From contig NZ_MU158689.1 in the NCBI RefSeq assembly GCF_015209965.1, positions 965,629-1,029,628 on the forward strand: a stretch of 64,000 nucleotides of DNA. The letters are read 5' to 3'. The notes under the pieces were generated by a model. It made no database searches. It saw only the letters and a program-made list of their open reading frames with translations, and was not told where the DNA came from. Below, one piece after another: positions 11,154 through 44,024 of the stretch. Every line of letters begins with the position of its first letter. The first letter of the stretch is position 1. Source of the stretch: Sphingobacterium pedocola. GTDB lineage: Bacteria > Bacteroidota > Bacteroidia > Sphingobacteriales > Sphingobacteriaceae. The translations under genes and the position numbers were made by a program.

Positions 11154-11561
11154 ACAATTTAAAATTTAAACGTTAAACCATAAATTGTATCCAGAAATTC
11201 AAAGGGCTTTGTAAATAAGCGCGACGAGACGTTTATTTTGGCTGAAGGCCCGTATTATTTTACCACCGCGGTGTACGCACTCGGTTGGTATTGCTCACGC
11301 AATTCTGAATACCCTACAAAGTTAGTATACTTTTTCGAGGCTACAAATTTTATTTAATTTATTTTTTATTAATTACGGTACACCTACCTGGTTGCTCGGT
11401 GTAATGATCTACAGTCCTGATCAGTTTTTTCTAAGAGGAAACTACCAAATACTGCCATTTTTTTACTTATTAGAAATGAAACTGCCATCCTGTCTTAAAA
11501 TCTATTTTGGAATATTCCTTGATATAGCCTAGTTATTAAAGCTAAAATTAACATATATAAT
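11154..11561. other. 408-base upstream region of htpG
   Basis: No open frame worth calling is present. The right end holds two ACTGCCAT boxes (see 11451-11497) and a TATTTTGG box at 11503-11510 about 50 bases before htpG. The left part is an AT-rich leader of the 87-residue gene, with no recognisable motif. Confidence 0.6.
11451..11497 (+). promoter_or_regulatory. Paired ACTGCCAT boxes, possible heat-shock element of htpG
   Basis: ACTGCCAT occurs at 11451-11458 and again at 11481-11488, exactly 30 bases apart (three helical turns). The second continues as ACTGCCATCCTGTCTTA and resembles ACTGACAGGCTGTCGTA before grpE at 20183-20199. A -7-like TATTTTGG follows at 11503. The shared motif ACTGNCANNCTGTCNTA before two chaperone operons suggests common regulation; the binding factor is unknown. 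Confidence 0.5.
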
Positions 11562-14446: not shown

Positions 14447-15100
14447 ATGGCAATTGAACACAAAGATATCGCTGCGATTAGAGAAGATTACGTTAAAGGA
14501 ATTCTTTCTGAGGCTGAGATGAAAGCCGATCCCCTGAAACAGTTTAAAGTTTGGTTTGACCAGGCTTTGGATGCTAAGGTAATCGAACCGAACGCAATGG
14601 CACTTTCTACGATCTCAGCAGATGGATTTCCTTCTTCCCGGATCGTACTATTAAAGGACCTACAACATGATGGATTGCGTTTTTTTACGAATTATCAGAG
14701 TCAAAAGGGAAAAGATTTGGTCAATTGTAATCGGGTAAGTGTTTTATTTTTCTGGGCGGAATTGCAGAGACAGATACGTATAGAAGGATGTGTAAACAAA
14801 CTATCCGTTGCGGATTCGGACGAATATTTTGCCTCTCGGCCTCGGGGCAGTCGGATTGGTGCATGGTCTTCTCCTCAAAGTTCGGTAATTCCGGATAGAG
14901 GCTTTTTGGAAAAAATAGTGCAGGATTTTACGAATGATTTTGAAAATAGTGAAGAGATTCCGAGACCTGATTTTTGGGGTGGATATGTGGTCAAACCCGT
15001 TAAATTTGAATTTTGGCAGGGAAGAAGTTCCAGGCTACATGACCGCATTCAATATACTTTAGAGAATAAAAAATGGGTTATAAATCGATTAGCCCCCTAA
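14447..15100 (+). CDS. pdxH: Pyridoxamine 5'-phosphate oxidase
   Basis: From ATG 14447 this is 217 residues, the normal PdxH length; an ATG at 14369 would add 26 residues unlike the family. The FMN enzyme oxidises pyridoxine or pyridoxamine phosphate to pyridoxal phosphate. Seen motifs are SADGFPSSRIVLLKD, FTNYQSQKGKDL, SRPRGSRIGAWSSPQS and the C-terminal FEFWQGRSSRLHDRI that binds FMN and substrate. It is followed 3 bases later by nuoC, an unusual partner, so the three genes pdxH-nuoC-nuoD appear to be cotranscribed. Confidence 0.97.
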   Translation: MAIEHKDIAAIREDYVKGILSEAEMKADPLKQFKVWFDQALDAKVIEPNAMALSTISADGFPSSRIVLLKDLQHDGLRFFTNYQSQKGKDLVNCNRVSVLFFWAELQRQIRIEGCVNKLSVADSDEYFASRPRGSRIGAWSSPQSSVIPDRGFLEKIVQDFTNDFENSEEIPRPDFWGGYVVKPVKFEFWQGRSSRLHDRIQYTLENKKWVINRLAP

Positions 15101-15103
15101 ATT

Positions 15104-15595
15104 ATGATAGATCAACTGAAAACTGAAATAGTGGCTCAATTTGGAGCTGAAAGCGTCGTAGATGTACAATTGGACGGATTGCAACAGGCTTTAGTCATTC
15201 ATCCCGGATATCTTATTGATATATGTGGATGGTTACGAGATAATCCAATATATTATTTTGATTTCTTATCTAATATTACTGCAGTCGATTATCATCCGCA
15301 AACTAAGTTTGCAGTGGTTTATCATTTAGCATCTATTCCGTATCAAAAACAGCTAACGCTCAAAGTTTTTATCACCAATGATAGAACGGCAGCGGCCCTG
15401 CCCGAACTTCCCTCGGTGAGTTCGGTTTGGAAGACAGCGGATTGGCACGAACGGGAAGCTTTTGACCTTATGGGGGTGTATTTTGATGGTCATCCCGATT
15501 TAAGACGAATATTGATGCCAGACGATTGGGAGGGCTACCCGCTGCGCAAAGATTACGAGGATCCAGAAAGTTATCACGGTATAGCAATTAAATAA
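15104..15595 (+). CDS. nuoC: NADH-quinone oxidoreductase subunit C
   Basis: The 163-residue protein is a typical 30-kDa subunit of complex I. Its end carries the signature [20 protein letters not shown] followed by [18 protein letters not shown]. In complex I, NuoC sits in the peripheral arm against NuoD. It lies between pdxH and nuoD with 2-3 base gaps. No nuoA or nuoB precedes it, which is unusual because nuoA-N normally form one cluster. Confidence 0.96.
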
Positions 15596-16824: not shown

Positions 16825-16855
16825 TTGTGAATAAACCGAACTATTTGTATCTTCG
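16825..16855 (+). promoter_or_regulatory. Promoter driving the candidate small RNA
   Basis: TTG at 16825-16827, a 20-base spacer and TATCTTCG at 16848-16855 match the Bacteroidota promoter except for one base in the -7 box. The predicted start near 16861 coincides with the first base of the conserved block, and no coding start lies close downstream. Confidence 0.65.
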
Positions 16856-16860
16856 TATTC

Positions 16861-16924
16861 TCATAATTTAAGTTTATAATTGGTTAATAGGAAAGTTCGT
16901 GTCCACTTGGACACGGACTTTTTC
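16861..16924 (+). ncRNA. Candidate small RNA, copy A (conserved 30-base head plus terminator hairpin)
   Basis: The head (TCATAATTTA, AGTTTATAATTGG, TTAATAGG) is almost identical to a block at 43958. It runs into a 13-base-pair hairpin (AAGTTCGTGTCCA/TGGACACGGACTT, loop CT) and a T run ending at 16924. A promoter lies immediately upstream. The transcript would be about 64 bases and would end 77 bases before the next gene. It could instead be only the nuoD terminator, but that would not explain the conserved head. I know no named family with this sequence. Confidence 0.6.
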
Positions 16925-43783: not shown

Positions 43784-43957
43784 GGCGCTAAATTAAATAA
43801 ATAATACGGTAGCTATGCGATATATTTAACAACTGATTGGATGAAGATCTCAAGCGGCGGGTTAACGTGCCTACTGTATTACAGGATAATTATTAAAAAA
43901 TATGTTAATATAAGTAGTTTGAACTTTTTGTGGCATTAAGATTGATTAATATTTAAT

Positions 43958-44024
43958 TCATAATTTAGGTTAATAATTGGTTTAATAATAAGCCTTCAAT
44001 CTCCCCGGTTGAAGGCTTATTTAT
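43958..44024 (+). ncRNA. Candidate small RNA, copy B
   Basis: The head (TCATAATTTA, GGTTAATAATTGG, TTTAATA) matches the block at 16861 with two substitutions and one inserted base across 30 bases. A perfect 13-base-pair hairpin follows (AATAAGCCTTCAA/TTGAAGGCTTATT, 9-base loop) and then TTATTT. It lies in the 324-base gap between the divergent DbpA-like helicase and OmpA genes, where a terminator for either gene is not expected. Promoter elements upstream are less clear than for copy A (TTTTTG at 43925, TAATATTT at 43947). Confidence 0.5.

Follow-up and report, generated by a model that had tools for sequence, protein, structure and literature searches.

The two nearly identical blocks of the analysed window (the whole stretch of 64,000 nucleotides from Sphingobacterium pedocola) belong to two genes, here called copies A and B, of a multicopy small-RNA family of the Sphingobacteriaceae, which is larger than first described. 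The head shared by these RNAs is antisense to the translation starts of SusC genes in two genera, and the members of the family are probably trans-acting small RNAs which repress SusC translation and resemble in their working the FopS RNAs of Bacteroides.

The original prediction described the blocks as differing by two substitutions and one indel and as lying in unrelated intergenic gaps. Re-reading of the sequence gave the same differences, and the flanking genes are distinct: copy A is located 3' of nuoD, and copy B is flanked by genes for a DEAD-box helicase and an OmpA-family protein (Table 1). The predicted promoter of copy A was found with its TTG, its 20-base spacer and its downstream box, but the gap between this promoter and the block amounts to five bases, not six. 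The hairpin of copy A with the T following it and the RNA of about 64 bases were recovered as well, the latter as a predicted RNA matching the covariance model, and the unit folds with an energy of -21.4 kcal/mol. The promoter-like site of copy B, of another type than that of copy A, had been overlooked. In a scan of the window with the covariance model the two copies stood first, with scores that are partly by construction (both are among the 22 sequences used to build the model), and the next best match reached 18.0 bits.

Table 1. Positions of the elements of copies A and B and of associated sites (window coordinates unless otherwise indicated)
Feature	Position	Strand	Details and basis
Head (seed), copy A	16861-16890	+	Alignment of copies; folds unpaired
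Head (seed), copy B	43958-43988	+	Alignment of copies
Predicted sRNA, copy A, about 64 nt	16860-16923	+	Covariance model, 61.5 bits, E 4.4e-11 (score partly by construction)
Predicted sRNA, copy B, about 67 nt	43957-44024	+	Covariance model, 83.2 bits, E 1e-15 (score partly by construction)
Terminator hairpin, copy A, then T	16892-16921	+	Fold; covariation across copies
Terminator hairpin, copy B	43989-44019	+	CTCCCC at loop (44001-44006); fold; covariance model
Predicted promoter, copy A	16825-16855	+	TTG (16825-16827), 20-base spacer, TATCTTCG (16848-16855); sequence
Sigma-54-like promoter, copy B	43931-43935 and 43942-43945	+	TGGCA, N6, TTGA; 12 bases 5' of TCATAA
Candidate target, nuoC start	15096-15108	+	CCTAAATTATGAT, ATG at 15104; perfect complement of canonical head ATCATAATTTAGG
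GTGTA-N-TACAC palindrome, likely operator	Upstream of copies at C1:1845561, C3:441409, C3:388228, C1:1264152, C2:1223729, C3:228351		Also in other genera

A blastn search of the own genome with a 100-base query gave 29 places at E<1e-3 among the 40 scored of 54 candidates. The covariance model R1, which covers head and hairpin and was built from 22 aligned own-genome copies, gave 48 matches in this genome at E<=0.01, and 42 of these reach E<=1e-6; the head is present in 47 and the remaining one is a terminator only. Predicted ORFs of at least 90 aa contain none of the 48 copies, and one copy extends a few bases into ORF ends. The covariance search that had been suggested thus returned many intergenic copies in which the head stays constant and the hairpins vary with compensation. 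R1 was made of own-genome sequences, so that it is independent of the copies found elsewhere; it has matches in 67 of 81 Sphingobacteriaceae genomes (own included) and in 21 of 25 genera. A phylum sample of 247 genomes gave matches in 14, of which seven are Sphingobacteriaceae and the other seven weak (best E 4e-5 to 9e-3). The exact head pattern occurs in at least 118 stretches of named genomes; the 80 exact-head stretches among the matches listed come from Sphingobacterium (49), Mucilaginibacter (16), Parapedobacter (11), Olivibacter (3) and 'bacterium A37T11' (1). A plasmid search with one copy as query gave no match. No fitting Rfam family was found in the window, in the own genome (for FopS) or on eight loci (L001-L008) at E<=5, where the matches, apart from one tRNA, were at chance level. 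Those touching copies were ncr952 over copy A (E 4.0) and, at the edge of one copy, Qrr (E 5), whose genes are sigma-54 dependent and which relies on Hfq. Hfq above the cut-off was absent from all 81 Sphingobacteriaceae genomes, the six of the own genus included, with one match below the cut-off. The window also contains a SAM-I-IV riboswitch match (11224-11317, minus strand) of 44.6 bits at a gathering score of 41.1. Titles and abstracts of the searched literature, whose coverage leaves out most subscription journals, do not describe the RNA family.

Each copy consists of a conserved head of about 28 bases followed by an intrinsic terminator, the stem of which changes by compensation. Among 21 distinct own copies 90.4% of cells are paired and 10 of 13 pairs have changed on both sides, while slid controls give at most 60.5% paired cells. 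For 38 distinct sequences from about 34 other Sphingobacteriaceae genomes the paired share is 91.9%, a figure favoured by the fitting of that alignment to the model; both partners differ in 11 of the 13 pairs, and slid controls stay at or below 58.7%. The head holds 1.78 bits of information per column, the stem 1.14 and the loop 1.77, and the core comes close to 2 bits. The best-conserved core, delimited partly by eye, is limited to GGTTwATAATTGGTTAG (RNA GGUUwAUAAUUGGUUAG) because in some relatives, as judged by eye, a TATATTTG-like box replaces the first part of the head. The loop reads CTCCCC in 36 of the 48 own copies despite their differing stems and in 68 of the 128 copies taken from named-genome loci; of 42 viral copies, 21 have CTCCC.

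Two unrelated promoter motifs precede the copies and end at the same point, i.e. at the same predicted 5' end. The pair TTG/TAnnTTTG is the -33/-7 promoter type of Bacteroidota. Exact TAnnTTTG is present close 5' of the head in 9/48 copies, compared with 9/301 gene upstream regions and 0.53% of random windows; copy A scores 5/6 against it, i.e. one mismatch, with TTG at a spacing of 20. The other motif, TGGCA-N6-TTGA, is sigma-54-like, and there is one sigma-54 gene in the genome. In the form TGGCA-N5..7-TTG it precedes 12 of 48 copies, B included, which represent about seven independent contexts (five copies are in one island and two in a pair), and it is found in 2/301 gene upstream regions and 0.20% of random windows. 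Its distance to the model start downstream is 12-15 bases, except for two of these copies, where it is 3-5. Neither motif is exact in 27 of the 48 copies. A palindrome, GTGTW-N3..9-WACAC, occurs upstream of six of the 48 copies compared with none of 301 gene upstream regions; as GTGTA-N-TACAC it is placed between or close to the promoter boxes, is kept across genera and is likely the operator of a transcription factor. Among the 128 copies from named-genome loci, 33 have TAnnTTTG, 12 have TGGCA-N5..7-TTG and 30 have the palindrome.

The complementarity of the head to SusC starts was estimated as duplex energy with the commonest head, the first ATG being taken as the start. At least 56 SusC genes are present in each of two genomes. 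In the own genome the set comprised 55 SusC starts (one duplicate of 56 removed) and 283 control genes, 18 of 301 having been removed as at least 900 aa long to exclude SusC-like genes. SusC starts reached -9.80 and other genes -7.65 kcal/mol (Mann-Whitney U test, p 2.0e-8), although such p values are too good because SusC paralogues are not independent, and shuffled heads are the fairer control. The SusC-minus-control difference of -2.15 was reached by none of 60 and then none of 300 dinucleotide-shuffled heads, and the absolute SusC-start energy was matched by 4/300. Reversed, complemented and reverse-complemented heads gave differences of -0.95, +0.47 and +0.73 respectively, and the core alone gave -1.20, reached by 3/300 shuffles. 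The bias persists when the controls are 121 signal-peptide-like genes (p 5.5e-8) and when ATGAA starts alone are compared (p 1.1e-4), and codons downstream of the start show no difference between SusC and control genes (p 0.14). Complementarity peaks at -20 to +5, and the start codon is covered by 38 of the 55 best duplexes. With the head of copy B the values are -9.67 and -7.55 kcal/mol (p 2.0e-8), the head of copy A has a weaker bias (p 3.2e-4), and an earlier test, in which 30 SusC starts were set beside 301 genes, had p values of 4e-6 and 5e-5. In a Parapedobacter genome 30 SusC starts (of 56 SusC loci) reached -12.6 against -8.7 for 85 controls, partly from other Parapedobacter records; none of 100 shuffles did as well, and the effect again lies over the start. 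The FopS head of Bacteroides also has a mild bias to the SusC starts of the own genome (p 0.023), so part of the signal may reflect a phylum-wide leader.

When all gene starts are taken together, the head does no better than its shuffles, 71/100 of which were equal or better; general antisense to all starts is not supported, the start-minus-upstream difference being reached by 17/100 shuffles. Pairing is moderate: long perfect targets were found nowhere but in the copies themselves, plus a few sites with two or three mismatches, and AACCTAAATTATGA is absent from the 30 SusC loci searched. The lowest duplex energy of 331 starts ranked (-22.9 kcal/mol) belongs to nuoC (Table 1), to which copy A's own head has one mismatch; this complementarity may be due to chance. 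Taken together, the copies, the compensated stems and the SusC-start target class lend computational support to the idea that a constant head with a variable hairpin marks a regulatory RNA with a shared seed.

The exact head is also present on 42 viral contigs (27 distinct 60-mers), each locus having a full-length R1 match, of which the weakest located at an exact head has E 2.2e-5. In one locus read for genes by eye (L316) terminase- and portal-like frames were seen. A sequence resembling a tRNA T-loop ends just 5' of the head in 11/42 viral copies versus 11/128 named-genome copies, and ARAGORN placed a tRNA end there in two (L325 and L338) of the 21 viral loci run. In these two loci and in L320:3300-3900 (minus strand) the RNA unit stands directly between tRNAs or tRNA-like sequences, as if from a tRNA array. 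Among named phages a viral-copy query matched Tenacibaculum phage JQ at E 4e-3 and four phages of Bacteroides at E 0.7, five records in all. Two weak matches of copy B, to phage JQ and crAssphage cr60_1 (loci L426 and L427), were rejected as copies, being by eye gene leaders on the opposite strand. By eye, a leader like the head's antisense immediately precedes the ATG of phage genes in both loci, and these leaders look like natural examples of what the RNA would bind.

Two islands of the own genome, C1:1394225-1476052 and C1:2276404-2312660, carry eleven and seven full-length copies respectively, all on the plus strand and between genes. Some island copies share 70-300 bp upstream (300 being the length examined), and isolated copies share approximately the stretch from promoter to terminator. 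Pfam families were assigned to 6/10 neighbouring proteins (DUF4143/AAA_14, DUF6088, YhcG/DUF1016, Abi_2, AbiEii, Schlafen AlbA_2/Fic-like), and the two regions resemble islands of defence or toxin-antitoxin genes in which the RNA gene recurs as a boundary.

According to the preferred reading, each gene would give an RNA of about 60-70 nt, with an unstructured constant 5' head and then an intrinsic terminator. The head would pair with the leader and start codon (approximately -20 to +5) of mRNAs of SusC-type outer-membrane transporters, and the paired head would block ribosomes and thereby silence SusC-led operons. The different promoters (TAnnTTTG, partly with the palindrome, and the sigma-54-like one) would let several signals feed one common repressor. 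Transcription, the exact 5' end and pairing in the cell are inferred here, and repression as the sign of the effect is suggested by analogy with FopS.

A real small-RNA family whose head is chiefly bound by an RNA-binding protein or targets other mRNAs, with the SusC complementarity as a by-product of a shared leader, is rather unlikely. The core, near 2 bits per column, is more constant than moderate pairing requires, the CTCCCC loop persists in 36/48 own copies despite differing stems, the absolute SusC energy is equalled by 4/300 shuffles and nuoC, not a SusC gene, ranks first of 331, all of which argue for such a role. The SusC-minus-control difference, reached by 0/300 shuffles here and 0/100 in the second genus and lying exactly over the start, argues against it. 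High copy number, upstream sequence of up to 300 bp in common among island copies, occurrence on viral contigs and the 27/48 copies devoid of an exact promoter motif would be expected of a terminator-associated or mobile repeat with no action in trans. Such a repeat is nevertheless very improbable: isolated copies share just the promoter-to-terminator stretch, promoter motifs and terminator persist through compensated changes of the stems, and the head is complementary to SusC starts. A cis element, being either the leader or attenuator of the next gene or the other-strand leader of a small gene starting from the ATG of the head, has the slightest chance and was rejected; the similar leaders seen by eye before the ATG of phage genes point towards it, but the next predicted gene has the same direction in 19 of 48 copies and the opposite one in 29, and the antisense-ATG frame has a median of 5 codons.

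If SusC translation is indeed controlled by these RNAs, control of SusC by multicopy small RNAs reaches from gut Bacteroides, which have an RRM protein, to a family in which 49 of 81 genomes have no RRM match. Copies of one seed would also be split between sigma factors, which section 14 of PMC11697453 raises just as a general possibility for paralogues, and the copies on viral contigs would connect phages with the control of transporters in a way that can be tested. It is conceivable, though distinctly unlikely, that the whole forms a start-codon-antisense network free of any of the known chaperones, in which dozens of promoters with different sigma factors, phages too, all make one SusC-silencing RNA, and phages, some with the RNA behind tRNA-like sequences, shut off outer-membrane transporters of the host, e.g. 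against rival phages entering there.

Among known systems, other small RNAs, named Rfp, come from Flavobacterium psychrophilum (PMC9723704). Qrr and LhrC, both named in PMC11697453, and other sibling small RNAs likewise have several copies with one seed, and a sequence relation to them was not found. GibS of Bacteroides (RF04182) shares with the present family a single-stranded 5' seed acting around start codons and a non-standard promoter, but it is encoded by one gene, spans about 142 positions in its model and has two seeds. Its promoter PM2, a near-palindrome with boxes at -10/-30, is not TGGCA-N6-TTG (PMC7366714), and its targets are other ones (PMC11697453).

The original prediction did not recognise the RNA as a named family, which holds for Rfam, yet the RNA would work like the published FopS small RNAs of Bacteroides (PMC11697453). 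Membership in FopS (RF04319, gathering score 56 bits) fails: the Rfam model has no match in the window, none in the own genome at E<=0.01 and none on the eight copies in L001-L008 at E<=5, the head alignment is not better than chance, and RRM_1 has no match in the six genomes of the genus. When four heads were aligned locally with that of FopS, 275-1773 of 5000 shuffles did equally well, and 0/8 head comparisons fell under 5% of shuffles. The best R1 match on FopS loci, located at a FopS site, has 18.0 bits (E 0.08). Another terminator-tailed sequence, at L004:141-207 and not on a copy, scores 32.3 bits with the FopS model, below its gathering score. RRM_1 matches were found in 0/6 genomes of this genus and are absent from 49/81 family genomes; the RNA is present in 32/32 genomes with an RRM match and in 35/49 without it (35 of the 67 RNA-bearing genomes), therefore the RRM is not needed for retention of the RNA, and the two are not exclusive.

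In PMC11697453 FopS (BTncRNA_FopS) is described as multicopy small RNAs of Bacteroides thetaiotaomicron with a head antisense to susC starts. The same source supplies repression through start-codon pairing and the name sigma-ABfr, and there RbpB, an RRM protein, binds and antagonises FopS, an arm missing in the present genus. Further differences from that account (PMC11697453) are the copy number, 48 here versus the 12-15 given for Bacteroides genomes, and the sigma-54-like promoters on part of the copies. Both families are nevertheless multicopy, with RNAs of 65-70 nt made of an unstructured constant 5' seed and an intrinsic terminator, and both have susC start regions as target class, here by computation in two genera. 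Many FopS copies have promoters of the sigma-ABfr type and FopS is also found on a phage (PMC11697453); here exact TAnnTTTG precedes 9 of the 48 own copies, and viral contigs carry the RNA as well.
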